Shown piece after piece: positions 7,567 to 49,046 of a stretch of 64,000 nt of DNA (positions are counted from its first letter, which is position 1; each line of letters starts with the position of its first letter). Location: NCBI GenBank assembly GCA_038049695.1, contig CP142453.1, positions 1,815,501 through 1,879,500 on the forward strand, given 5' to 3'. The notes under the pieces are model-generated. The model saw only the letters and a program-made list of their open reading frames with translations. It searched no databases and was not told where the DNA came from. The translations under genes and the position numbers were made by a program. This DNA is from Cinnamomum chago (lineage: Eukaryota > Streptophyta > Magnoliopsida > Laurales > Lauraceae).

Positions 7567-7680
7567 TTTGTATGTTTGTACAGTGCTTCTGGATTTAATA
7601 GAACTACGTTCGTTTTGGGGCAAGTTGATGATCAATGGCAATGTGACAGCGACAATGGTGCGAGTATGGAAGACTGTCTA

Positions 7681-8170
7681 AGGATGGCACTCAGCCACCT
7701 AGACGAGCTGCCGAAACGGCCCATGTCTAAGGATGGCACTCAGCCACCTAGACGAGCTGCCGAAACGGCCCATATCTAAGGATGACACTCAGCCACCTAG
7801 ATGAGTCGCCGAAACGGCCCATATCTAAGGCTGGCACTCAGCCACCTAGATGAGTCGCCGAAACGGACCATGTCTAAGGATGGCACTCAGCCACCTAGAC
7901 GAGCTGCCGAAACGGCCCATATCTAAGGCTGGCACTCAGCCACCTAGATGAGTTGCCGAAACGGCCCATGTCTAAGGATGGCACTCAGCCACCTAGATGA
8001 GCTGCCGGAACGGCCCATGTCTAAAGCTGGCACTCAGCCACCTAGATGAGCTGCCGAAATGGCCCATGTCTAAGATTGGCACTCAGCCACCTAGACGAGC
8101 TGCCGAAACGGCCCATGTCTAAGGATGGCACTCAGCCACCTAGACGAGCAGCCAAACTAGTTAAGGTTAT
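7681..8170. repeat. 49-bp tandem array, 10 units, in the 3' region of the gypsy element
   Basis: Units begin at 7681, 7730, 7779, 7828, 7877, 7926, 7975, 8024, 8073 and 8122, an exact 49-bp period. The core contains GGCACTCAGCCACCTAGA and GCCGAAACGGCCCAT. A degenerate unit follows to about 8215. Sequence drift between units is small. Tandem arrays between pol and the 3' LTR are a known feature of Tat-lineage elements and can seed genomic satellites. Confidence 0.95.
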
Positions 8171-8533
8171 GGTTGGCACTCAGCCACGTAGACCAGCCGA
8201 AACGGCACCAGACGATAATGGCACCCAGTCTTATCACTGCCTTAGGCCTGATGCGATTCTTTGTTTTCGCCGAAGGGGTCAGAGCGCTCGCGGGGAACCC
8301 TAGTCTGGTCGGTCTACTCTTGTCCGAGCTCACATCCATGTTCACAAACTTGCGGAAAGCACAAACAGAAAGCAAATCAAAGCCAAACATAGCACAGGGA
8401 AAGAGGTCTGAAATCCATTGATAACGTGATATGCGCATTGGAGCTTACATTTTCCATTCATCACAATTTCTGATCAAAACAATTCGAAACAAAGATTACA
8501 TTTTTTATAACAAAGCAAAAAGAAGGAACAAAA

Positions 8534-11385: not shown

Positions 11386-11400
11386 GAACTGAGGGGCTAT
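11386..11400 (+). other. Polypurine tract of the gypsy element
   Basis: GAACTGAGGGGCTAT lies immediately before the TG of the 3' LTR. The core TGAGGGGC is shared with the tract of the second LTR element (15944-15951). Confidence 0.7.
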
Positions 11401-12110
11401 TGTGTGGGGGCCCATCTCTTGAACCTGTTCCTCTTGGTCTCGGCAAGGGTGCGCTCGGATATGCTGACGTGTGGGAGCCATTTCTCTTGATCTCGGCTAC
11501 GACCCGATCCATGTCGGTCTCGGCACTACGTTCTGGTCTCGGCTGAACATAATTCAGTTCGGCCGCGCATACCGTCCAGTCTCGGCAATGCAGTATTGCG
11601 CTTGCAGCTAACAGCCACGGCCCTCTCGTGGCAAGGCCCAAGGAAGGGATCTGATGGGACTTCAGCCACCACCAGATCAGGGCAAGATCAGGCCCAATGT
11701 GACTGGCATTAAATGCATTGTGGGCTGATCGGACCCACATTAAATGCAAAGAGGGCTATCATGGACCTTCATTAATGACTTTGTGGGCTGATGTGACCCA
11801 GGTCACATCACCAAGCCCACTAGCACTCACCCAAAACTGTTCCATATATAAGGCACGAGCCAAAGGGAGCAAGGGGGTAAGCACTCTGACATAGACACTC
11901 AGTCTTTCTTCTTCTTCTGCTTCTTCTTCTTCTTCTCCGATCCATTGCTGACTTAAGCATCAGAGAGCCCTGCGCTGCCCATAGCCAGGGTCCTCTGACC
12001 TTTGTCTTTCTCCTCTTTCAGGTTCATACCGTCGCAGCTATCTCCTCCATGCATTGAGTAAGTCCTAAGAGGCATCCTGATCTTGTGAGTATATTATTCT
12101 TGCACTTACA
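11401..12110 (+). repeat. 3' LTR of the gypsy element (710 bp, complete)
   Basis: It begins TGTGTGGGGG and ends TTACA at 12110, followed by ATATT, the exact copy of the 5' target duplication. Its first 680 bp match the 5' LTR. The last 30 bp exist only here. Confidence 0.9.
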
Positions 12111-12764: not shown

Positions 12765-13252
12765 TGATGGGACAGGCCCAAATGACTCGGTCCGTAGTGA
12801 CGAGTTAGGCCCAAATGACAAGGTCCGCGTTGACGGGTTAAGCCCAAACGACTCGATCCACGATAGCGGTTCCATCTACCGACTTTCACCAAGTCCCGCG
12901 GAAGAGATCTTACCTGCTCATCTGTTGAGGACAGTGCGGGAGACTCCACCAGAATGGAGCGTACATCATTGGAGATCCCTGGAAAATCTCCCCACCCGTT
13001 GGAGAAAGAGTATAAAAGGAGAAGTCCTATCAGAGAAGCGGGGTACTCCAATTCTAATTTCAGATCATCATTGTAATCTCCTACTTTGTAATCTCCTCCC
13101 CAGAGCAGTAAATTCACCAATTAAAGTGGACGTAGGTCACACTGACCGAACCACTATAAATCTCCTCTCTTTCTCTCTCTCTCCATCCATTTTTTCATTA
13201 ATTATTTATTACTTGACCGGTGGTGCCCGAAAACCACTTTTTGGCATCATCA
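12765..13252 (+). repeat. 5' LTR of the gag-only element
   Basis: 488 bp, TG...CA. It contains TATAAAAG at 13011-13018, a likely core promoter, and a CT-rich downstream stretch. Confidence 0.95.
13011..13018 (+). promoter_or_regulatory. LTR TATA box
   Basis: TATAAAAG lies about 240 bp before the LTR end; the same motif is in the 3' LTR. It probably drives the genomic RNA of this element. Confidence 0.65.
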
Positions 13253-13255
13253 GTT

Positions 13256-13304: not shown

Positions 13305-14660
13305 ATGCCGATCACCAGATCAACAAGGCGACAAGATGGTAACCCCTCGCGCGAGGGCGAGGGTAATCCTCCACCGACCAACCCTGTACCGAATGCTCCC
13401 GCTCCCTCTCCCCAGCAGATGCTGGAGACCATGCAGCAGTTGGTAACTCAAAACCAACAAATACTGCAGCTCATGCTGGCGAGTCAGGGAGGAGCGCTAG
13501 GTGCAGGACCGCAGGAAGCACCACTCTCGGAGCAACTGGTCGCTCCACGCAGAGGGGCACCTCACCCGGGTGCCCGTCCACATGGTGCCCGGGGCCGAGG
13601 CGCCAACCGAGGCCGCTCTCACCTGAGCGCCCAACCCCTGGGCGCCCAGGGTCGAGGACCACAGCTGAGCGCCCAACCCCTGGGCGCCCAAGCCCTAGGC
13701 GCCCATCCTCATGGCGCCCGTCATCATGCCACCCACGCCCAGGGGACATCTGATGGAGCTCCGCCGGTCGTCCCAGACGGAAGACTCCTGGTTGATCCTG
13801 AAGGCCGCGCTCATCTCGACGCACCCCCTCCCCCGGGCGGGTCGAATCACGGTGGACTTCCACCCCCTCCCTCTGCTTCCAATCATGAGGATCCTGATTT
13901 CCAGGAGATGGGAAGTGGGAATTACAGCCTGGAAGACGAGAGTCAGTTCCAAGGTCAATCCGGAGAAGCTCCCAACCTTTGGGATGAGAAGTTCAAAGAG
14001 ATGCAAAATCAGATTGGCAACGTCTTCAATGCCATGAAGGCACAGGTACCAGAATCTATTGACTACCTGGTACAGCGAACAGACACACCCTTCAAACCAG
14101 CCGTGGCGAACTATCCACTCTCCAAAAAATTCAAAATGCCGACCATAGAGACTTTTGATGGAACCAAGGACCCGCTGGATCACTTGGAAACTTACAAAAC
14201 CCTAATGCAACTACACAACATCCCTGAAGAGATCATGTGTAGAGCATTTCCAACTACATTGAAGGGTTCTGCAAGGCAATGGTTCTCCAGTCTCGCCCCA
14301 ACCTCCATCTCCACCTTTGCAGAACTAAGCAAGTCCTTCGTGTCGCACTTCATTGGAGGACACCGCCACCAGAAGCCTGCCACCCACCTACTCAGCATAA
14401 AACAGGAACAAGATGAGAGTCTAAGGAGTTACCTCACTCGTTTTAACGAGGAGGTCCTCCAAGTCGAGGAGCCCAACGAGAAAGTCACCATGACCGCCTT
14501 TCTGGGAGGCCTCCGCTCATCCCGTTTCCTCTTTTCAGTAATGAAGCGACCACCAAAGAGCATGCCAGAGCTGTTGTCAAAAACTCAAAAATATATAAAT
14601 GCTGAGGAAATCAACAGGTCCAGGCGAGGTGAATCATCTCATGGATCACCAAAAGCTTGA
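13305..14660 (+). CDS. gag: Gag protein of the TR-GAG element
   Basis: An intact 451-aa frame opens at ATG 13305, 33 bp after the primer-binding site. The N-terminal half is Pro/Gln/Gly/His-rich, with an internal repeat (residues about 105-130 carry SAQPLGAQ twice, from duplicated GCGCCC-rich DNA). A retrotransposon gag domain follows at about residues 275-430, including FDGTKDPLDHLETY and the GSARQWFSSL block typical of gypsy Gag. No zinc knuckle or protease follows, and the stop at 14658 falls inside the first unit of a tandem array. The nucleic-acid-binding C-terminus found in autonomous relatives is therefore missing. It probably co-assembles into particles of a helper element. The frame shows no damage. 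Confidence 0.9.
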   Translation: MPITRSTRRQDGNPSREGEGNPPPTNPVPNAPAPSPQQMLETMQQLVTQNQQILQLMLASQGGALGAGPQEAPLSEQLVAPRRGAPHPGARPHGARGRGANRGRSHLSAQPLGAQGRGPQLSAQPLGAQALGAHPHGARHHATHAQGTSDGAPPVVPDGRLLVDPEGRAHLDAPPPPGGSNHGGLPPPPSASNHEDPDFQEMGSGNYSLEDESQFQGQSGEAPNLWDEKFKEMQNQIGNVFNAMKAQVPESIDYLVQRTDTPFKPAVANYPLSKKFKMPTIETFDGTKDPLDHLETYKTLMQLHNIPEEIMCRAFPTTLKGSARQWFSSLAPTSISTFAELSKSFVSHFIGGHRHQKPATHLLSIKQEQDESLRSYLTRFNEEVLQVEEPNEKVTMTAFLGGLRSSRFLFSVMKRPPKSMPELLSKTQKYINAEEINRSRRGESSHGSPKA

Positions 14661-15040
14661 CCTACCTCTGCACTGTTCTCAAACAGGCAGCCTATATATC
14701 CAGCTTAGCGGCTCTCTCGCGGGTCGCCAAAAAGCTTGGCCTCTGCACTGTTCTCAAACAGACAGCCTATATATCCAGCTTAGCGGCTCTCTCGCGGGTC
14801 GCCAAAAAAGCTTGGCCTCTGCACTGTTCTCAAACAGGCAGTATATCTCCAGCTTAGCGGCTCTCTCGCGGGTCGTCAAAGAAGCTTGGCCTACCTCTGC
14901 ACTGTTCTCAAACAGGCAGCATATCTCCAGCTTAGCGGCTCTCTCGCGGGTCGTCAAAGAAGCTTGGCCTACCTCTGCACTGTTCTCAAACAGGCAGCCA
15001 ATCCCTAAACTTAGCGGCTCTTTCATGGGGCGCCAAAAGC
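14654..15040. repeat. 74-79 bp tandem array, five units
   Basis: Units start at 14654, 14733, 14809, 14883 and 14961 at AGCTTG(G/A)CC. Each has CTGCACTGTTCTCAAACAG and, in most, TTAGCGGCTCTCTCGCGGG. Unit length varies through small indels; the last unit is diverged. Position and design parallel the 49-bp array of the larger gypsy element. Confidence 0.92.
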
Positions 15041-15953: not shown

Positions 15954-16441
15954 TGATGGGACAGGCCCAAATGACTCGGTCCGTAGTGACGAGTTAGGCC
16001 CAAATGACAAGGTCCGCGTTGACGGGTTAAGCCCAAACGACTCGATCCACGATAGCGGTTCCATCTACCGACTTTCACCAAGTCCCGCGGAAGAGATCTT
16101 ACCTGCTCATCTGTTGAGGACAGTGCGGGAGACTCCACCAGAATGGAGCGTACATCATTGGAGATCCCTGGAAAATCTCCCCACCCGTTGGAGAAAGAGT
16201 ATAAAAGGAGAAGTCCTATCAGAGAAGCGGGGTACTCCAATTCTAATTTCAGATCATCATTGTAATCTCCTACTTTGTAATCTCCTCCCCAGAGCAGTAA
16301 ATTCACCAATTAAAGTGGACGTAGGTCACACTGACCGAACCACTATAAATCTCCTCTCTTTCTCTCTCTCTCCATCCATTTTTTCATTAATTATTTATTA
16401 CTTGACCGGTGGTGCCCGAAAACCACTTTTTGGCATCATCA
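15954..16441 (+). repeat. 3' LTR of the gag-only element
   Basis: 488 bp with no difference found against 12765-13252. It is followed by the target duplication GTAGG. Confidence 0.95.
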
Positions 16442-16446
16442 GTAGG

Positions 16447-37469: not shown

Positions 37470-37683
37470 AAAATAAATAGAACGGTGAGAACTTACCTAC
37501 TGCACCGGTGAGTGTGGCATTCTCATCCGACTGTTCAGGGTTTCAACCACTTGTGCCCACCTCTTCCCACTTGTTTGGACTTCTTTTCTGATATTTTTTC
37601 TGCTTATGCGGGCTATTTTTTCATGTGTGTGGGGGCTTTCTCTTGGGGTCTCAACCCCCTTGGTTGGGTTGCCATTTTTTTTT
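37470..37683 (+). mobile_element. tRNA-derived SINE-like element, copy B, ending in oligo-T
   Basis: It is homologous to copies at 19395-19625 and 49925-50110. CTGTTCAGGGTTTCAACC corresponds to the B-box region. The body has CCCACTTGTTTGG and GCTTATGCGGGCT phrases, and the 3' end is TTGGTTGGGTTGCCA followed by T9. The MULE begins immediately after the T9. Confidence 0.5.
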
Positions 37684-37929
37684 GGGACATTTTCCGTACG
37701 GTCACCTACAGTAGCACAAATCCCTCCCCTGTTACCAAAGTCCAACATATTACCAAGACGTTATCCGTACAGCCCGTACCGCTGGAAAGAGCACAAGCTG
37801 AGTCGTTTTTGCGATATCACAACATATATTGCGATATCATAAGTTTTTAATTTGCGGTATCGCAAAATAAGTTGCGGTATCGCACCTTTTTTAAGTTGCG
37901 ATATCGCAAATATTGTTGCGATATCGCAG
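37684..37929 (+). repeat. Left terminal inverted repeat of the MULE
   Basis: 246 bp, about 98% identical to the complement of 48790-49035 (5-6 mismatches counted by eye). The outer half contains the palindrome CCGTACGG (37694-37701). The inner half contains six GCG(A/G)TATC motifs. Confidence 0.93.
37811..37927. promoter_or_regulatory. Array of six phased palindromic motifs in the left TIR
   Basis: GCGATATC or GCGGTATCGC motifs start at 37811, 37831, 37854, 37874, 37898 and 37918, so spacings are 20, 23, 20, 24 and 20 bp. The last two are full palindromes within TTGCGATATCGCA. The right TIR has the same array. Regular spacing near two helical turns suggests a set of protein sites on one DNA face, perhaps for the transposase; that function is inferred. 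Confidence 0.8.
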
Positions 37930-39103
37930 AAAAATACAGGCTAAAAAGTCAACGAATGCATTCCTGTTTATAATTGCTTTCCGTTCCGTTGCTTTCGTCA
38001 ATCTCTGGCTTAGGTTATCTACTCCCCTGCTCTTTGTAAGCGTTGCTTCTGCCACATATTAAGTGATTTCTTTTGCATGTCAACCTTAGGCCATTATCAT
38101 AAATAGCAATTAAATCTCCTGCCACATCTTTGTCTTAGGTATTTATTCCATGTATCTCCCTCTTATTTATTGTATTATTTTTTTCTTCTTTTGTGTCTTT
38201 TGAAAAAAAAAGTTAGAATACAAGAAATCCCACTTGTAGGAACATTTGAAATATTTTGTGTAAATATTAATAGTGACCTTAGGTTGGACTTGTGGTGCCT
38301 CATTTTTTTTATGAACATCATGTTGTTAATATATTAAAAAATCCCCTTATTCTCATCATGAATTACCAACAACTGGATTTGGCCTGGACGTCTAGTTGCA
38401 AAAAACAATGAGGCATGTCTTCTTCATCCCGTCCTACGGTGGTACCCAGCACAAATTCTGTATAAATGTTTACATATTCTTTTAGCATTTGCCTGTTATT
38501 GTGGCATTACAGACATCATTTTGATCATTATCTTAAACTGCTAATGTTTTTTTTTTAATGCTATATATAAGTAAATGGTTTAGATTCTTTAGTAGTTATC
38601 AACAAATGGTGATATTCATTAGATGAACGGTCTTGATTGATTTCACAATTATTTTATTTAAATGGGTGTTTTATGGTGTGTATATATATACTTTTGCTAA
38701 ATGTAGAGAATTAGTACCAATGAGATGTAAAATAAATTTGCTAAAATATCTAGTATAGAATTGATTAAGATAATGCATTTATTTTTATTTTTAACGGACA
38801 ATGCATTGTTATTTGTTTGTTATTGTTATAGAAATACGTAGCTTCATAATATCCTAAATGTCAATGCTTAGATTTTAACTCTTTTAATTTTCCATGTATG
38901 CATATAGTAGTTTTTTATTTTACATACAACAACCTTCAAATTTTAGTAATTCCAAAGATTCATCTTATTTACTAAAAAAATACTTATTTCGATATTTATT
39001 TTCAGACGTTTAATCTTCATGGATTATATGGATGTTTGTAGGTAACTTCAAAAATATTCAAAAGTAAATCTTATTTTTCGAAATTTGTGTTCTACTTCGT
39101 AGG

Positions 39104-41916
39104 ATGGATGATACTGAGATATGTATAATATGCCATTATAATGGTATATTAGACGTAAGCAATCCACTGCCGGTCTACATTGGCGGTGAGCAGAAGGTAA
39201 TATGGGTTGATGTCAAAATAACTTTCAATCAACTACTCGGAAAGATAAACGAAGAAACTGGTTGGGAGCTTCATGATGAGCATATAAATATGCAATATCA
39301 GTTTCATAATGGCCGAAGCTTCACGTTCATAACCATTAGAAGTGATGATGATCTCCATCGGATGTTCAGATTATTCCAAAATGGAAGTCAAGCTATATTT
39401 ATGTATTTGCATTCAAATAGTGAAGCAAGTGCAAGTCGACAACCATCACATTTAAGGTCTACATACGCTCGACCTAACAACCCTCAAGGGAATAGACCGT
39501 CATGTAATTTGAACAGGTGCCACCACAACCCATCATAACAAATGTAATAACTGCTGATCTGTTTAATATCTTTTTTTAGTTATGTTACTGATTGTTTAAT
39601 GACATAGTGATTCACGCAGGGGGAATTTGATGACATATACAAATACCACAAACTTTTCCAACGGTGAAAAGGATACATGTGGCCCTTCAACAAGAGAGGA
39701 TGTTTACAGGTTTGGTTCACTATACATCTGATTTGATTATATTATGTAATTTATATATGATTGACTATTTGCCATGCAGGTGCGACATCTCATCTTATCC
39801 TGTTCAAAGCCAGTTTGACCTGAACACGCCTGTTATACCTCATGATAACCCATTTGTAGACGCCATGCTTGAAGATTTAATAGCTCCCATTAATCTTGCA
39901 GAAAATGAAAATGAAAAATTCTCCAATAGAAAGGATGAAGTTGTCATGGATTGGATGGAAACGGAAACAGTATCCAAAATTCATTGTTTTGATGGAGGGT
40001 GCAATGTAGTGGATGAGGGGGCTAAAAATGATGAAGATGATTTTGATATTGATGTTGACCCTAGAGAATATATATTGCAAAATGGCATAGGACTAGGAAG
40101 AACATGGCATGCACAAGAAGGATTGGGTCATGCATCAAATGTTGTGAGTGTAGAAGACGTTATTGATACTTTAGTCCCTGATGATGACCATATTGGTTTG
40201 GATCACCATGAGGCATCTTTTCGTGAAATGTGGAATGGAAGACGGTTTCAGACTCGTGAATCATTTAGAAATGCATTGAGAAAATTTGCAATGTACAGTA
40301 ATTTTGAGCTTCATTGGGTGAAAAGGTCTATGACAGAATTAAGTGGAAGGTGTGGTGATCATCAATGTCCTTGGCGCATCCATGGATCTATCTTGCAGTC
40401 CGGCCCTGAGTTTATTGTGCGAACTTATTCAGAAAAACATACTTGTTCGAAGCCAATGATGGGACTCGCACATTCTCAAGCCACATCAGCGTTGATTGCC
40501 GATTGGATAAAAGAACGGTTGCGTATCCATCCAAGTTACACTCCAAAAGAAATTGTGACAGACTTTCAATTAGAGTTTGGCATCCATATCAGTTACAGGA
40601 AAGCTTGGCTAGCAAAAGAGAAAGCAGTGATTGACATACGTGGTTCTTATGAAGATTCATACAGAATCCTACCTAGTTATTGTATTGAACTAGAAAGGAC
40701 AAATCCAGGTAGTGTGTCTCATCTGATCAGGGAAGATGATGATTCATTCCAGAGGTTATTTTGGGCTTTTGGCTCAAGTATTCGCTCTTTCAAGAGTTCA
40801 TTACGCCCATTAATAGCTGTTGATGGTGCCCACCTTCGTGGAAAATACCCTGGAGTTTTGTTTGTTGCCGTGACATATGATGGAGACCGTAAGTTATTTC
40901 CAGTCGCCTTTGCCATAGCCGAGATAGAGGATAGAGATACCTGGGAATGGTTCCTTGCAGAGTTGGATGTGAACTTAGGGCCCTTTCCAAATTTAATCAT
41001 TGTATCTGATAGACAAAAAGGTCTCATACGAGCCGTTCAAGAGCGTTTTCCTCACGCTAGTCATACCTACTGCATGCGTCATATATCAGCAAACTTTAAA
41101 GAGAAGTACAAGAATGAGGCTCTGATGGTTAAATTTTGGAATGCAGCAAGAGCATATAGGCGGGTTGATTATGAGAGATATATGGCTGAAATAAATGATC
41201 TTGATGAAGGTGCATGCAAATGGATTGAAGACATTGGGCCGCATCACTGGGCAAATGCATTTGTTGAAGGGCGACGGTATGACATGATCACAACCAATAT
41301 TGCGGAATGCACGAATAGTCTATTGAAAGAGGCTAGGGAGTATCCAATCACAAAACAAGTTGAGGCCTTACGGTGTAAACTAATGGAATTTTATGATGTA
41401 CGCCATCGCAGTTCACTTGGCTTGCGTACAAGACTAACTCCATATGCCGAGAAAATACTTAGCAAAGAATCTGAAGATGCCCGTCGGTTGGGAGTCCGAC
41501 CTGCAAGCCAATTCGAATACCAGGTTCACTCTTCCGAATACATTGATGTGGTGCATCTTGATTTGCGATCTTGTTCATGCCGGAAGTGGGATGTCTTAGG
41601 TATTCCATGTTCGCATGCACTGGCAGCAATTCAAATGAGAGGAGTTGATCCATATGATTACTGTGAGCATTGGTTCTCGAGCGATGTTTATCGCTCAACA
41701 TATAACGATATTGTCCATGCGATAAGAGACATCCAGCAATGGGAAATTCAGAGCAATCTTCGCGTCTTACCTCCACAGGCACGACGACAAGCTGGCCGAC
41801 CTAAAAAGAACAGAACTCGTACTGAGGACAGACAAAAACGACAAGTCATGTGTTCCAATTGTCGCCAGATTGGGCATAATCGAAAGAGATGTTGTTACCC
41901 ACCTGCACGACAGTAG
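39104..41916 (+). CDS. MuDR-type MULE transposase with N-terminal PB1 domain
   Basis: I model three exons: 39104-39516, 39620-39709 and 39780-41916. They splice in phase (GT-AG) to 2640 nt, 879 aa, with no internal stop. The N-terminal 105 residues form a PB1-like fold. An acidic linker follows, then a MuDR DNA-binding zinc region (about 314-395). The MULE catalytic core has Asp516 (IAVDGAHLRG), Asp578 (IIVSDRQKG) and Glu677 (NIAECTNSLL) as the likely DDE triad. A SWIM zinc finger (about 766-780, CSCRKWDVLGIPCSH) and a CCHC knuckle (859-872, CSNCRQIGHNRKRC) complete it. The product acts in the nucleus on the element ends. PB1 plus MULE also occurs in domesticated MUSTANG-B genes, but here the gene lies between matching TIRs, so it is a transposon gene. 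Confidence 0.93.
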
Positions 41917-43274
41917 TTATGTGGACCAATAAGCTCAAAACCTTTTGTATGATTATCCGTCTAATTGTGTCTATATCTGACTACTTTGTAGAAAGAGATT
42001 ATACATTTTGTATATATTGAAGCAGTTGCTTGACGAGTCACTAAGACTATGTGTACTCTTATAATGGATATGCATACACTTTTTGTGGTCAGGCATTCAG
42101 TCTTAGTTTGTAGATTTCCAATGTGCTCCTGCTGGTAAGAATTGGTACATCGAATATGTCCATTCACAATGTGTACTTAAGCTACATAGTATCAAAATGT
42201 GCATCTGGTCAGATTTTCTCTACCATTTTAGACACCTTCCTCCCCTGATTACAACCTTCACATTGTGTATTTACTTGCTAATAAGTATTCATGATAATGT
42301 ATATTTTAGTTCAAATTTTTATCTTACTTAGTGGGGTTTTTTTTTATTTTTTTATTAGATGCTTTCTGTGCCATTTGATCACAACATATATGAACTGAGA
42401 AGGTGATATGATCCTCACATGGGATTGTCCATTCATCAGTTGTTATTTAATCAAACAACATGAATAATGTATATCTTACTTCAGCCCAACAAATGGAGCT
42501 AATCGTAATGAAATAACACAACATTTATAATGTGTATCTTACTTTTTATCTTTTTTTATGAGTTGCTTTCTGTACCTTGACAAAACCTTCCTCTCCTAAC
42601 AGTGTCATAAGATGAAAGCCCAACACATGGAAATTTCGATTCACAGTTGCTATTTTATTCTTACAACATAAATAATGTATATCTTACAAGAGAGCACACT
42701 CAGAAGTTACACCTGCTTCTCTTCACCATACATGAAGCAATCACATTGAACGATCTTAATTCATGTGCACATGAAGTGTTATATTTATTCTTAAATTACT
42801 TGTAAGTTCACATCTAACAACTTTTGTTATTCAAATGCACACCCACATTCACAATTCACACTTCAGGCCATGCTGTACATGCACTTAGATCACCTGCACA
42901 TTCACATTTAAACACCTTCTCTTCACCTACACATGAAGTGTTCAAAATCCACATCAAACTTTAGCTGGACATTCCTTCAGTGTTGTACAGTATTTGTGCT
43001 CATCCTGCACAGATATTTGAAAAATCATTGTCTCTTCACCTGTAAATGAAAATAGTATATGATTTACATCTTAAGTCATCTGCACATTCATTTAGTGCAG
43101 TACATTATCTTAATTCACACTGCACATTCACATTGTACACCTTCTTCTCTTTAACTGCACATTAACTTTGAATGTGATCATCTCAAGTCATTTGCACAAT
43201 AGTTGTGTAATACACCATCTTATTGGAAGTAACACTGCAGTACATCAATATCTATTAAAAGCTTGATGCATCTC
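41917..43274. other. MULE interior without recognised gene
   Basis: AT-rich. From about 42700 there are loosely recurring phrases (CTGCACATTCACATT, CTTCTCTTCACCT), perhaps an old degenerate tandem repeat. The first part is the likely 3' UTR of the transposase. Confidence 0.45.
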
Positions 43275-43485
43275 GTTAATACCTGGTTAGTGGCTCAGTT
43301 GAATCACAAGGAAGCAGACTATGACAATCTTTGGAGCACTATGGTGGTGGAGGATGCACAGTGGTGGGCTCCAATGTAAAGCCCAAATTGTCTAGCTTAT
43401 CATCATGAGAAATTCCTGTTTGGAGGAGAGTCATGTTATCATCTCTAACCTTCTTTCCATGAAGAAGAACACCAACTCGCAGACC
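43275..43485 (-). pseudogene. Captured fragment of a telomere-repeat-binding (TRP/TBP/TRFL) gene
   Basis: The minus-strand frame reads GLRVGVLLHGKKVRDDNMT, then LLQTGISHDDKLDNLGFTLE, a strong match to the ubiquitin-like region of plant telomere-binding proteins. Past an in-frame TAG at 43339 the same frame continues with LPCDSTEPLTRY, also family-like. The Myb-type telobox domain and the rest of the gene are absent. It lies inside the MULE, opposite to the transposase and TPS1 pieces, so it is probably a captured exon that has decayed. Confidence 0.55.
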
Positions 43486-43489
43486 ATAG

Positions 43490-44389
43490 ATAATTGGTAG
43501 AAAAATAGACTGATAAGAATCACATGAATACACAAATCAATTACACAAATCAGTTGCAGGTTCTCCCTTTACTGCAATCCCTCTTTTTTATTTTTCAATG
43601 GAGATGGACGTTGGTGGAAAATTTGTCCCTTCTTTTCTTTTTGATGGTGATGGAAGTTGGTGGAAAGTTATTCCCTTTTGTATTTTCTAGCATGTTTTTC
43701 TTGAGATACTTCTAATTTAAGTAATAAAGGATGATCCTTGTGTCCCATTTTTCCTCTTCTCTTGTTCTTTATGTAGTTTGCCTGGTTCTAGGAGTGACTG
43801 TTATTATTTGGCTCGCCTTTTTGGACTTCCTATGTTTTTTCTACCATTTTTTTAAAATTTAGCATTTGGTTTAGGTAGTGGTGATTTATAACTTTTCTGA
43901 GAGTTCCTTAAGCTTTTGTTTTGAAATGCTTTGGATGTAATGTGCCCAGTAAGAGCCCTACTTATTAATGTTCCCCATCTTTAATGAGACTTTCAATTCT
44001 TCCCATGTTTTTTCTGGTTGAAGAGACATTTCATTAAACCAGAATAAAAGATAGATGTATAACAACCATCAGGGCACTAAGCAGAACAGGGAGGGAAAAA
44101 AGCTATTGAATATGTGCTCAGTATCTCAAAACATAAAAGAGCTATTAGAAGTTGCCTTAGCATTAAGTCTATAGTCTCCAGAGCTTAGGGGACCAGCTCC
44201 CATGGGCCACAGAAGTGGTCTTTTAATTGGTGAAACCATGGGCAATTTATGGGCTTGACAATTACTCTTTTCCAACTCCCTCGCGCAGGATGACATAGTA
44301 GGTTATAATGTGGATATATGGTAACTTCTTTCCTTGAGCAAGTTAGTACTCCATTGTGTCTCATGGCATTTATTGTTTCAAAACTGAAG
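43490..44389. other. MULE interior, unassigned
   Basis: No protein similarity recognised. The right part may be intron sequence carried with the TPS1 segment. Confidence 0.4.
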
Positions 44390-45206
44390 GGATTTAATGC
44401 AACATTGACAGAACCAGTGGACACCCCTGGAAGAAGAGGTGATCAAATAAAAGAGATGGAGCTTAAATTGCATCCAGATTTAAAAGATCACTTGGCGATT
44501 CTCTGTGATGATCCAAAGACAACTATTGTTGTCCTAAGTGGGAGTGAAACACGTGTCCTTGATGATGTAATCCTCTTTATTTAGATTATGATTTATCCTT
44601 GTGATATTTGAAACCTAACAATTTCTTATGTAGAACTTTGGAATTTCTTATGTAGAACTTTGGAGATTACAACATGTGGTTGGCCGCTGAAAATGGGATG
44701 TTTTTGCGCCGTACCAAGGGAGAATGGATGACAACGATGCCAGAGCATCTAAATATGGATTGGGTCGACAGTGTGAAGGTACCCATCTTTCATCATTGTT
44801 TTGTTGGCAATTTAATGTTTAAAATCTACTGGCCTTATGGAGTTTCTTGGTTTGCTGACATGCCATGCTTATCCAACTTGTCAGCATGTTTTTGAGTATT
44901 TCACAGAGAGAACACCAAGATCTCATTTGGAACATCGTGAGACTTCACTTGTGTGGAATTATAAGTATGCAGGTATTGGTGAAACTTATCATTCCTTTTT
45001 CCTAGCTTATTTCTCAGTTGTGCTTAATGTGCAGCTGCCTGTTCCCTTTTTCTTCTCATCTTATTATGATTGTAGATATTGAATTTGGAAGGCTTCAAGC
45101 GAGGGATATGTTGCAGCATCTTTGGACTGGTCCCATTTCAAATGTTGCTGTTGATGTTGTACAAGGTAGCCGATCAGTTGAGGTGCGATCTGTTGGTGTT
45201 ACAAAG
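44390..45206 (+). pseudogene. TPS1: Captured TPS1 (trehalose-6-phosphate synthase) fragment, four exons with introns
   Basis: The exons are about 44390-44566, 44656-44778, 44885-44972 and 45076-45206. They correspond to consecutive parts of the C-terminal phosphatase-like (HAD) domain of class I TPS: FNATLTEPVDTPGRRGDQIK, NMWLAAENGMFLRRTKGEW, VFEYFTERTPRSH and QARDMLQHLWTGPIS. All GT-AG junctions and phases are preserved and no stop occurs over about 173 codons. The glycosyltransferase domain and the final exon are missing. The retained introns show capture from genomic DNA rather than mRNA. A roughly 22-bp duplication (AATTTCTTATGTAGAACTTT) precedes exon 2 and doubles its acceptor. If transcribed it could only yield a partial protein or regulatory RNA. 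Confidence 0.88.
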
Positions 45207-46700
45207 GTGGGTGAGGTTGATTCTTTTTCCAAAGGTGTTGTTAGTATTGTTTGCATGTTTGTTGTGTATGAGAACCAGAATCTCATACATCATGCTAATT
45301 TTCCGGGACCAAAATGATCAGAAATGTCACATGATTGGATATGTTTATATTTTTCCACATTTTCACCATTTGTGCCTTAGATCACTCTTAAAGTTTTTCA
45401 GTTATGCAGTTTTTCTAGATTTTACTGTAGCAATTTCACGTGGCCTTGTTATGATCTGTATATGAGAGTTGACTATGTCTTTGTTAAGAGCATAAACACC
45501 AGAAGATGCTCTACTCTACACAAGATCAGTATATGAGAGTTGATTATTCCTTAGTATTATTTTAGCACTCAATGCAAATAGCAAATAGTAGATGCTTTGG
45601 TTATCTAAAAAAGTCAAAAGAAGAGGGAAAATCATTCAGGGGAAAAAAAGAATAAAGAGAAAAGGACAAAGTAACTCAAAACTCTGTTGACAAGCTTGGT
45701 ATATTCCTCTTCTCAAGGAATGAGGGTTGAGTCATTTTCGGCTATGTTTCTTGTAAATCATTCATCTTTTTTTATAATTAAAACAGTGTTGTGTATTATT
45801 GTCTTCATCTATTAATCACACATGATTTATGCATTATTGCTGTCTCTGTCCTATTATGAATTAATAAGTTCATTCTAACATAGTAAAATGTTCCAACATT
45901 CTATAGTACTGAAAATGTTGTATTGTCTTCTTTTTGCCCTCAGGAAAGGTGGATATTCTAGAGATCTCTAAGGAGTAAGGATCAATGGAAGACAAAATCA
46001 CATGTAATTCAATTTCCACGTGAACCCATGGCAACACAACCAATTTAGATGAGCCAAACAGGGCATAAGTAGCAGTTTGCCTTAGTTTTGTAATGATCAT
46101 CATCAAGTCTATCATATGACCCATTCACTAGGGAAACCAATCCTTGGAGATATATCACCAAACACTAGGTGATTATTCTCCTTTGATTTATGCTTTTGGC
46201 CACATGGCCACCATTAAAAACCCTAAAATTCTTATCAAAGATGGCAGTAAATGAAGGGCACTTTTCTGCAGATAAAGCCATTTTTTCCTTTTAATGTTGC
46301 TTCATGAGTGCTTTGCTTCAAAAGACATAAGCAGCACTGTCATTTGGATCAATACAAAGCTGCCACTGAGATTGAAATGATAGGCGAAAAAGTCCAACAG
46401 AAAATTTTTTGTACACGCATTTCATGAACGCCCAATCGGCCAAAATATAACTTTGCCAAAGTAATTCTAACAGTTTAACTCCTTTAATCAAAGTGGCACT
46501 AGATTAGTGCACTATTTGACTAGATTGTCTTCACTTTGCACACCCATTGCTCCAAAATATTAGATATCAACCATTAAATTTGTCCATGATAAAGGCAATT
46601 CAAGAAAGACCCAAAGCAATCCAACTCTAACAGGGAATTAACCATCTCCCCCCACACACAATTCTCATGCTCATCACTTCCCCTTTCTAAATGCGTTGTG
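45207..46700. other. MULE interior, unassigned
   Basis: Beyond a possible remnant of the next TPS1 intron at the left edge, no gene is recognised. Confidence 0.45.
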
Positions 46701-46754
46701 TAATTTTGATATAATAATTCAAAATGAATTGTAAGTGTTTACCAAATTAAATGC

Positions 46755-46850
46755 CTAAACACTCTATTAGAAGCCTTTTTTAAATCAATAAAATTATCTA
46801 CAGAATTTTCTTTAATCTGAACTTCTACAAGAATTTCATGACCAGCAGAA
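46755..46850 (-). pseudogene. Possible LINE reverse-transcriptase relic
   Basis: The minus-strand frame gives FIDLKKASNRVFRHLIW, close to the LINE RT motif around FIDLxKAxDRVPR. The first catalytic-block Asp is kept and the second position is changed to Asn. The match is short and ends at a stop, so the call is tentative. Confidence 0.35.
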
Positions 46851-47412
46851 GTACTAGGATATAGATTTAAATTATTGTATTTATGCTTCCAACTTTCTAA
46901 ACAAGTCAATTCAAGGAAACAACTAAATGTAAAATCACGAGATCACTTACATTTATGCTTCAGTTGTTTGCCAAGTCATGATCATAGTGGAAAAAAGATC
47001 TAGACCTGCAAGCAACGGACCATCCTTCTACAAACCACCCTTTGACAGCCTAGTTTTCATATATGTTGGCCCTCCAATTTTTTCTTTGGAAGCCTCACTA
47101 TCCCTGAAATTTGTTCGAGCTTTCCACATTTACCAACCATAATATGACTGACTTCAACCCTTACGCAAAAACCTTCGACTCACTCACAAAAAAATGATGC
47201 AAGACTACTTCTTGAACCCAAGGCCCATGGACTAGGCGTAGGCTACCAACTTACACCGAAAGGCCCTTGGACCCAGGTCCTGTGAGTTAGGCCATGCTAA
47301 GATATGATTAGAATTAGTATTGGTTAACTTATTTCACTCGTTGGATAAAGATTAGGGCCTAAGGATTCTGTAATTAGAACGAAATACATTGTATTTGGAG
47401 GATCTTATGACA

Positions 47413-47413
<1 letters not shown>

Positions 47414-47474
<61 letters not shown>
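47414..47474. repeat. (TA)n(GA)n compound microsatellite
   Basis: A TA tract to 47443 is followed directly by a GA tract. Confidence 0.95.
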
Positions 47475-47479
<5 letters not shown>

Positions 47480-47488
47480 AGGGGATTT

Positions 47489-47800
47489 GGTAATAAACAT
47501 TGTAAAGGCCTAACGGCCTCTCTATATAGAATGAGCCCTCTTGTAAAAGTAAACTAGATTGATACTGAAGAGAAGTTTTTCTCCCAAAAATTTGGGGACT
47601 AGGGGATAAGCATTGTAAAGGCCTCGCTAAATAAGATGAACCATACTGTACAACTAGACTAGATTGGAACTGAAAAGAAGCGCTTTTCCTCAAAGTTTGG
47701 GAACATGGAGATAAACATTGTAAATGCACAAAGGCCTTTATAAATAGGGCAAACCCTCTTGTACAACAGGACAAGATCGTAGCTGAAGAGTAGTTTTTTT
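47489..47800. repeat. Three-unit tandem repeat of about 105-115 bp
   Basis: Units begin near 47489, 47602 and 47707 with ATAAACATTGTAAAGGCC-like starts and share CCCTCTTGTA and AACTGAAGAG. The last contains TATAAATAGGGC. The layout resembles a repeated promoter/R region from an LTR, but the origin is not proven. Confidence 0.7.
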
Positions 47801-48544
47801 CTCAATTTTTCCTCCTTTGTTTTCCTTGGTGAACCTCTTGTCTTGGTAGTGAAGCCAAGATGATCTAAGTCCTTGCCTTGACATCCAGTCTACTAATGTG
47901 GATCTCCCTTTTCCATGACGCATCAACCCCCTCCCCTAACCCAAACCGATCAATGCAGTCCTACTTCAGGCATTCACACTTACTAAAGTTTTGACCTTTG
48001 TTCACCCCACAACCATTTCTGCTCTGGTGCTCCACGCACCCAAATTCTTCAAAATTTCAATAACATCTCATTCATTCAATAAGCCACAGAGTTCCAGATG
48101 CACTCCAAGTGAAAGAAACTGCATACATCATAAAGGACCATAACCCAACATACCGTTGAAGGGAAGCATAGCCTCAAGCAACTAAATTATCTAGTATTCT
48201 GATTAACAGCACTAAAACTAGGAAAACAGAGGCATGCCTATCAGAAGAAAGAAAATTCTCACCTCCCAGCCCACCCATCAAATGGGTGACACTGAAAATG
48301 GAAAATCCTAACAACTCAATGCATTCGAGACGACAAGAACACCATAGACTAGAATGAGGTCCTGATCAATGGCCTCAAAGCCTTCAAAAACCAGCAAAAC
48401 CTATCGACCTTCAACTTAGAGGTGAAGATGATGGTTATGAAGATGAGGAAGATAAAGAGTTCAAAATTATAAGGTAAAAAATGGATCTGCATTGATCTGG
48501 CTTGGACAAGCAAATAATAGTAAAACAGGCTCGTTCCATTGATC

Positions 48545-48785
48545 CATACATTAATACTTACATGGATGAGTATGCAGACGATGGACCCATACCGCTGGGG
48601 AGATGAGGATGGAGACGATGGAGATGATGAAGCTTCGTCGCCGTTGAATGGACGTTGGGACCTTGCGTATTTGCAAATAGGTTGGCGAGGGAGGAGGATG
48701 GTGAAAATCGGCTGGGAGAGAGTTACCGTCGGTGAAATTAGGGAAAGTCGAACAGGGAGGGTTAAACAGATGAAAAGGGGCTTTT
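48545..48785 (-). other. Possible first exon reading inward from the right TIR
   Basis: On the minus strand, sequence between the TIR and about 48563 is GC-richer than its surroundings. It ends at CTCATCCAT/GTAAGT, an excellent splice donor. No protein family is recognised, and it may be a captured 5' exon or a leader of a second MULE transcript. Confidence 0.35.
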
Positions 48786-48789
48786 TGTG

Positions 48790-49035
48790 TTGTGATATCG
48801 CAACAATATTTGCGATATCGCAACTTAAAAAAGGTGCGATACCGCAACTTATTTTGCGATACCGCAAATTAAAAACTTGTGATATCGCAATGTATGTTGT
48901 GATATCGCAAAAACGACTCAGCTTGTGCTTTTTCCAGCGGTACGGGCTGTACGGAGAACGTCTTGGTAATATGTTGAACTTTGGTAACAGGGGAGGGATT
49001 TGTGCTACTGTAGGTGACCGTACGGAAAATGTCCC
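48790..49035 (-). repeat. Right terminal inverted repeat of the MULE
   Basis: Complement of 37684-37929. It carries the same six-motif array and ends GGAAAATGTCCC before a T11 run. Confidence 0.93.
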
Positions 49036-49046
49036 TTTTTTTTTTT

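Follow-up and report, generated by a model that had tools for sequence, protein, structure and literature searches.

Repeat arrays in the terminal inverted repeats (TIRs) of Mutator-like elements (MULEs) are already known, and the family described here is a further variant. It is represented by a complete MULE in a 64-kb stretch of the Cinnamomum chago genome (contig CP142453.1, positions 1,815,501 to 1,879,500; hereafter the window). In Aedes aegypti, subterminal tandem repeats of 9-15 bp occur in 10 of the 12 MULE families with long TIRs, and Muta1, which transposes in yeast, combines a 10-bp imperfect palindromic tip with nine copies of a 12-bp repeat (PMC5225508). The window family shares with these elements TIRs longer than 100 bp, a subterminal array of short repeats, target site duplications (TSDs) of 8-9 bp, and derivatives that differ in repeat number; a palindromic tip motif comparable to that of Muta1 is common in its close copies but rare in its diverged relatives. 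As described, however, the 12-bp repeats of Muta1 are separated by spacers of 3-4 bp and its 504-aa transposase has a FLYWCH finger (PMC5225508), whereas in the window family the near-palindromes are 14 bp long, number at most six, are spaced 20-24 bp and form a 43-bp dimer, and the transposase domains are DBD_Tnp_Mut and SWIM. FLYWCH was not among the Pfam matches of the window frames at E <= 0.001.

Other systems share parts of this architecture. The TIRs of Tm1, a Mutator/Foldback element of root-knot nematodes, consist mostly of a 13-15 bp tandem motif in variable number and are flanked by 9-bp TSDs, but the motif is another one, the repeats are contiguous rather than spaced, and the published account mentions no element that could code for an intact protein of the Tm1 type (PMC3169594). 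The Muta/Tm1-like arrangement of short repeats in the inner TIR is present in the window family with 4-6 units, in 45 ends and 10 diverged relatives. A sequence-only reading of the window knew of no described MULE family with such an array; the Aedes Muta and nematode Tm1 families are published examples (PMC5225508, PMC3169594). MuTAnT of Medicago is likewise a plant MULE with long modular TIRs forming a foldback, 9-bp TSDs and AT-rich insertion sites; it differs in its four similar segments and its targeting of TA microsatellites, and its description includes no short spaced motif array (PMC4486113). VANDAL21 of Arabidopsis is a plant Mutator-type element with one-orientation motif arrays that gain and lose units, but its motif, YAGTATTAY, lies in introns and upstream non-coding DNA and is bound by VANC21 (PMC5735166). 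VANDAL TIRs are described as degenerate, unlike those of the window copy, which are 98% identical across 245 nt. Maize MuDR/Mu has long TIRs with a transposase-binding site and a promoter, and TSDs of 9-11 bp; it differs in its ~32-bp MURA motif, without a six-fold array (PMC3310237). In Galileo, a Drosophila element of the P superfamily, the THAP domain of the transposase binds several sites in tandem repeats within the long TIRs (PMC3688188). Superfamily, domain and motif all differ, and binding was demonstrated for Galileo while it is inferred for the window family. The family itself was not found described in the open-licence literature searched by motif letters and MULE TIR repeats, mostly judged from titles; among the titles listed for the motif letters, none dealt with a plant transposon.

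The evidence below suggests that each TIR of the window family carries a series of sites recognised sequence-specifically by a protein, most likely the MuDR-type transposase that the element itself encodes (probability roughly 0.6).

The array in the window copy

A six-motif array with spacings of 20, 23, 20, 24 and 20 bp had been claimed for both TIRs, and the claim is confirmed. The TIRs are 245 nt long with arms that are 98% complementary (BLASTN identity 237/242), and either one holds six 14-bp units at exactly these distances. The consensus, TTGCGRTATCRYAN, is close to the perfect palindrome TTGCGATATCGCAA. At up to two mismatches the 14-mer occurs 12 times in the window, every time within one of the two arrays; the control, 20 simulated Markov-1 windows, gave 3 matches altogether. 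Read from the tip inward, TTGCG is identical in 12/12 units and only positions 6, 11, 12 and 14 vary. The contrast between outer and inner halves gives P = 0.052 within the left TIR alone, and the two window TIRs are near-identical, hence not independent of each other.

Tandem Repeats Finder resolves each array into 2.7-2.8 copies of a 43-44 bp unit. This repeat is a motif pair at 20 bp, with successive pairs 23-24 bp apart, so that the five spacings do not count as independent observations.

A family of mobile elements

The host genome (1.061 Gb, 14 contigs) was searched with the TIR (40 of 352 candidates scored), its outer 124 bp (40 of 232) and the transposase (59 of 4117); the resulting counts are lower bounds. 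At least 45 TIR ends, from 47 loci, pass the tip filter; ends failing the tip pattern, C2:21127344 and C10:8786190, are left uncounted. The 45 ends form 21 pairs spanning 4.9-23.1 kb. A perfect 9-bp TSD flanks 16 of the 21, and these TSDs are 83% A+T. Inner flanks start like the left or right interior of the window copy at 42/45 ends, although 17 of the 45 are comparable over only 155-325 bases. Two ends, C11:45708295 and C3:1202613, start instead in the captured region, their right TIR being joined straight to the trehalose-phosphatase region described below, and the flank of C2:14893993 is mixed. The transposase search listed 62 matches that are 78-100% identical, several of them without stops in the aligned frame. 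Two long members, C9:5498344-5507293 and C9:5507505-5528040, lie ~0.2 kb apart, each with a perfect TSD.

At spacings of 17-23 bp the motif pair gave 303 + 304 genome matches, and the reversed pattern 0 + 0. The pair fixed at 20 bp matched once, in Stappia, in 257 Gb of prokaryote contigs; two viral contig scans returned 0 pattern matches, and a third gave 10 pattern stretches, none of them a relative. Of six further pair loci that were fetched, five lie in MULE ends, as judged by similarity to the TIR or interior. Spacings at these further loci are mostly 20 and 23, also 24 and 18, with 15 and 45 in a short derivative. At L094 (C1:29468350-29468850), two units lie 18 bp from each other with no TIR or MULE end recognised around them; this may be remnant sequence, or the site may be used there independently. 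At a seventh pair locus, L097, the ends were not identified. L094, together with the 18-bp spacing of L092, speaks against a strict spacing rule.

Conservation of the motif core

In the alignment of the 45 ends, the TTGCG and TATC blocks are what stands out as conserved. Over units 1-5, with unit 6 excluded, variation per cell is 0.0055 for TTGCG and 0.0057 for TATC, as against 0.0061 in the T-tract linkers, 0.0176 in the outer TIR and 0.087 in the 6-bp linkers. Counted as varying columns, the figures are 9/70 in units 1-5, 0/19 in the T-tract linkers, 15/124 in the outer TIR and 10/18 in the 6-bp linkers. The latter vary in sequence but rarely in length: 43/45 ends have a first spacing of 20, the two exceptions being one missed unit and one lost unit. 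At the TIR tip (columns 1-18) close copies differ little, with 11 of 810 cells minor.

Diverged relatives extend this pattern. Ten were taken from the transposase list, all absent from the TIR matches and with transposases 78-96% identical, and were fetched at the expected tip. The array is present in 10/10 (from the 59 scored transposase candidates), with 6, 4, 5, 5, 5, 5 (plus one with an insertion), 5, 5, 6 and 5 units, at spacings of 20 (23 times), 23 (9), 22 (5), 24 (3) and 32 (1). Among their 51 units, position 11 is changed in 16 and position 9 in 11, while positions 3, 4 and 5 are changed in 3, 5 and 3, and positions 1 and 2 in none. The unit thus looks directional rather than strictly palindromic. 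In the five most diverged relatives, 474/613 aligned bases of the outer TIR match the window copy, compared with 164/180 at nine core positions of four units, a contrast (Fisher 1.7e-5) whose certainty is overstated because the rows are related. In L084 the last unit, which has a 2-base insertion, was omitted, so that its last-two-unit comparison is shifted by one unit. The reading of a real array, conserved in the family and similar in appearance to protein-binding sites, is supported.

The outer palindrome CCGTACGG fared differently. As had been noted, it is present in both window TIRs, and it is common in close copies; only 1/10 diverged relatives keep it, and a GTAC core is present in 9/10. 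Conservation of CCGTACGG as a palindrome beyond close copies was therefore rejected.

Loss of units and mobility

Conservation of motif number and spacing among relatives had been proposed as a check, and the two behave differently: the spacing mostly stays at 20-24 bp, while the number varies from 4 to 6 at full-length ends. Six units were scored in 33 of the 45 ends, five in 9 and four in 3. The detector accepted only units with TAT at positions 7-9, and one unit in C9:3079204 escaped it; that end, scored as five, has six by eye. All losses in these ends are of whole units.

Elements with fewer units have moved. An identical five-unit junction is found at C11:45708295 and C3:1202613, in elements of 7,353 and 7,356 bp that lie at different sites, have different perfect TSDs and differ by 5 mismatches over 320 bases; an element with a five-unit end has therefore transposed. 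A derivative of 345-346 bp retains four units at the left, and its right motifs lie 85 and 100 bases from the tip, 15 bp apart. It was found at three sites (L089, L095 and L096) with the perfect 9-bp TSDs TTATTTCAA, AATAAAGAA and TTAAAAAAA, and two copies differ at 1/346 bases. Too small to contain a transposase gene, it was, to judge from its ends, presumably moved by the transposase of the window family. Mobile relatives without the array or with random spacing had been named in advance as a refutation. These cases refute a need for six evenly spaced sites at both ends, but do not contradict a role for the array as such.

The reason for the wide variation in MULE TIR length has been called unclear (PMC6446971). 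With many similar copies, several transposase copies that lack stops within the aligned frame, and varied arrays, the family offers a natural series for the number and spacing of sites that a MULE end needs, comprising 4-6-unit arrays, altered spacings and the 346-bp derivative.

Spacing and helical phasing

From the spacings it had been proposed that all sites face the same side of the helix. Calculated for 10.5 bp per turn, the phase coherence of the six sites is R = 0.71, for which P is 0.017-0.023 if the spacings are assumed independent and ~0.10 under a dimer-duplication null. Of 435 + 423 genome pairs at spacings of 14-44, the 100 listed, all on one contig, have spacings of 18 (3), 20 (29), 22 (6), 23 (25), 24 (4), 32 (1), 40 (1), 42 (5), 43 (22) and 44 (4), in rows that share ancestry and in part duplicate each other across strands. 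A spacing of 21 is absent among these 100. A period of ~21.5 bp is clear; a location of the sites on one helix face is weakly supported. Strict helical phasing as a feature of the array was rejected, given the value under the duplication null and the mixed spacings without 21.

How the array may function

The pattern of constraint, the presence of the array at both ends, the short derivative and the Mutator-type DNA-binding domain of the transposase together point to transposase-binding sites that are used in number. Each site would have a directional core, TTGCG-R-TATC, with a looser mirrored half on its inner side. Sites are paired at 20 bp through a 6-bp linker that is freer in sequence and steady in length, and a T-tract of 8-10 bp links each pair to the next. 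Having several sites at an end may allow cooperative loading and confer specificity for the family's own ends, while cleavage would use the separate terminal tip. Loss of whole units, probably by slippage between repeats, would then yield the 4-6 units at full-length ends while spacing remains at ~20-24 bp.

Several observations weigh against this reading. The described MURA site is a single ~32-bp motif rather than an array (PMC3310237). The copies sampled are those most like the query, and the Fisher tests disregard shared ancestry and TIR homogenisation. Contrast is slight in one diverged relative, L080 (outer TIR 0.777, core 0.806). For units 1-5 as a whole, variation per cell in close copies is close to that of the outer TIR (0.0156 and 0.0176), and the motif columns of all six units vary more (0.0395 vs 0.0182), an effect due partly to misalignment of shortened arrays at unit 6, the TIR boundary. 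Finally, the derivative moved with two right-end motifs, so a full array at both ends is unnecessary.

A rather unlikely alternative is that a regulator or anti-silencing factor encoded by the element acts on the array, as on the VANC21 motifs of VANDAL21, and keeps the ends unmethylated. The transposase would then bind elsewhere, or would itself also perform anti-silencing, as MURA does for Mu TIRs. The motifs bound by VANC21 are short, share one orientation and lie in tandem repeats subject to gain and loss of units (PMC5735166), and MURA triggers TIR hypomethylation (PMC10398659). The arrays are also rich in CpG, at observed/expected ratios of 2.65 and 2.29, compared with 0.96 and 0.99 in the outer TIR and 0.43 in the element interior, an excess that is partly a consequence of the motif itself. 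Against such a regulator, no VANC-type domain (DUF1985/DUF287) was found by Pfam in the frames of the window copy that were scanned, namely the transposase frame, the upstream frame, two minus-strand frames and the six frames of 41917-48349. The interiors of larger family members, of up to 23.1 kb, could contain further genes.

It is unlikely that a host transcription factor binds the array and uses it as promoter or enhancer for the transposase and captured sequences. Each TIR has three GTAC-core sites, and GTAC cores in the outer TIR would suit SBP-box factors. Mutator TIRs hold promoters and cell-cycle enhancer motifs (PMC3310237). However, a literature search, by titles only, named no plant factor for the motif letters. 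The array is moreover present at right ends as well as left, thus also on the side distant from the transposase frame, and in a 346-bp derivative too short for that gene, so that a role in movement is favoured over one in transcription.

The CpG content of the array makes methylation-sensitive binding worth a test. In a quite unlikely extension, the array would act as a methylation-gated counter: each site has a strongly kept outer CpG in TTGCG, methylation would prevent the transposase from binding the 20-bp-paired sites, and the count of open sites at an end would set the ease with which that end is licensed for movement.

That the array is a functionless selfish minisatellite, with spacing and similarity produced by slippage and TIR homogenisation, is very unlikely. 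The 43-44 bp tandem repeat, the whole-unit losses in several ends (slippage between repeats would preserve spacing) and the pair of units at L094 outside any recognisable MULE end would all fit. Homogenisation, however, should preserve the linkers too, and the 6-bp linkers are far more variable than the units, both in the varying columns of close copies and between the window dimers, where linker identity is 0.33 and 0.28 and motif identity 0.85 and 0.88.

That the palindromes act as hairpins or foldbacks of DNA or RNA, with no protein reading the duplex, is hardly credible. The array strand does fold well (-32.4 kcal/mol, z = -7.4 vs shuffles), but so would any palindrome set, and the commonest unit form, TTGCGATATCACAA (96 of the 255 units detected in the 45 ends), breaks the palindrome on the inner side while the outer side is uncompensated.

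The window element and its coding content

The coordinates of the window copy are collected in Table 1. A MULE-type transposase, a 9-bp TSD (8-11 bp expected) and long TIRs place it in the Mutator superfamily.

Table 1. Features of the MULE in the window (positions are those of the 64-kb stretch)
Feature	Position	Strand	Details
Complete MULE, 11,352 bp	37684..49035	+	TIR pair, flanking T9, transposase, 20 more TIR pairs in genome
Left TSD, TTTTTTTTT	37675..37683	no strand	
Right TSD, TTTTTTTTT	49036..49044	no strand	inside a run of 11 T
Left TIR, 245 nt	37684..37928	+	
Right TIR, 245 nt	48791..49035	-	
Left array, six TTGCGRTATCRYAN units	37809..37929	+	starts 37809, 37829, 37852, 37872, 37896, 37916
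Right array, six units read from right tip	48790..48910	-	48790, 48810, 48834, 48854, 48877, 48897
Outer left TIR, three GTAC-core sites	37694..37779	+	CCGTACGG 37694; CCGTAC 37765, 37774
Right TIR, three matching GTAC-core sites	48940..49025	-	CCGTACGG at 49018
Upstream open frame, PB1-like domain	39068..39538	+	PB1 E 5.9e-05, 23.4 bits, slightly below gathering score 23.6
Transposase open frame, 760 aa	39634..41916	+	DBD_Tnp_Mut (200-260), MULE (394-487), SWIM (640-669)
Telomere repeat-binding-protein (TRP)-type ubiquitin-like domain fragment, 28 residues	43402..43485	-	PF23603 E 3.7e-10
Trehalose-phosphatase domain fragment, three pieces in three frames	44644..45218	+	PF02358

The transposase frame matches PF10551 (E 8.4e-17), PF00872 (E 7.6e-11) and PF03108 (E 5e-09). 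The candidate residues of its DDE triad lie in VDGAHL 396, SDRQKG 458 and NIAECTN 555. The upstream PB1-like frame may belong to the transposase gene as its first coding segment. A PDB sequence search with the transposase gave 0 matches at E <= 0.1, and the AlphaFold model of its DNA-binding domain, with a mean pLDDT (predicted local distance difference test) of 56.8, was too poor for use.

Two fragments between the TIRs were probably captured from host genes. The trehalose-phosphatase pieces, one in each forward frame (PF02358 E 3.9e-08, 2.9e-09 and 1.5e-06), are arranged like exons with introns retained, and presumably resemble a class I trehalose-6-phosphate synthase in its C-terminal part. 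The second is the TRP-type ubiquitin-like fragment, for which a PDB sequence search gave 0 matches at E <= 0.01. Such host-gene-like fragments are a trait of Pack-MULEs, but these are defined as non-autonomous, without a transposase (PMC5225508), whereas the window copy has an open transposase frame.

Elsewhere in the window, tandem arrays of a 49-bp unit (x10.7, 7675-8197) and a 78-bp unit (x5, 14653-15037) are present. Two direct-repeat pairs, 1218-1898 / 11400-12080 (99.7% identical) and 12765-13254 / 15954-16443 (100%), look like the long terminal repeats of recently inserted retrotransposons.

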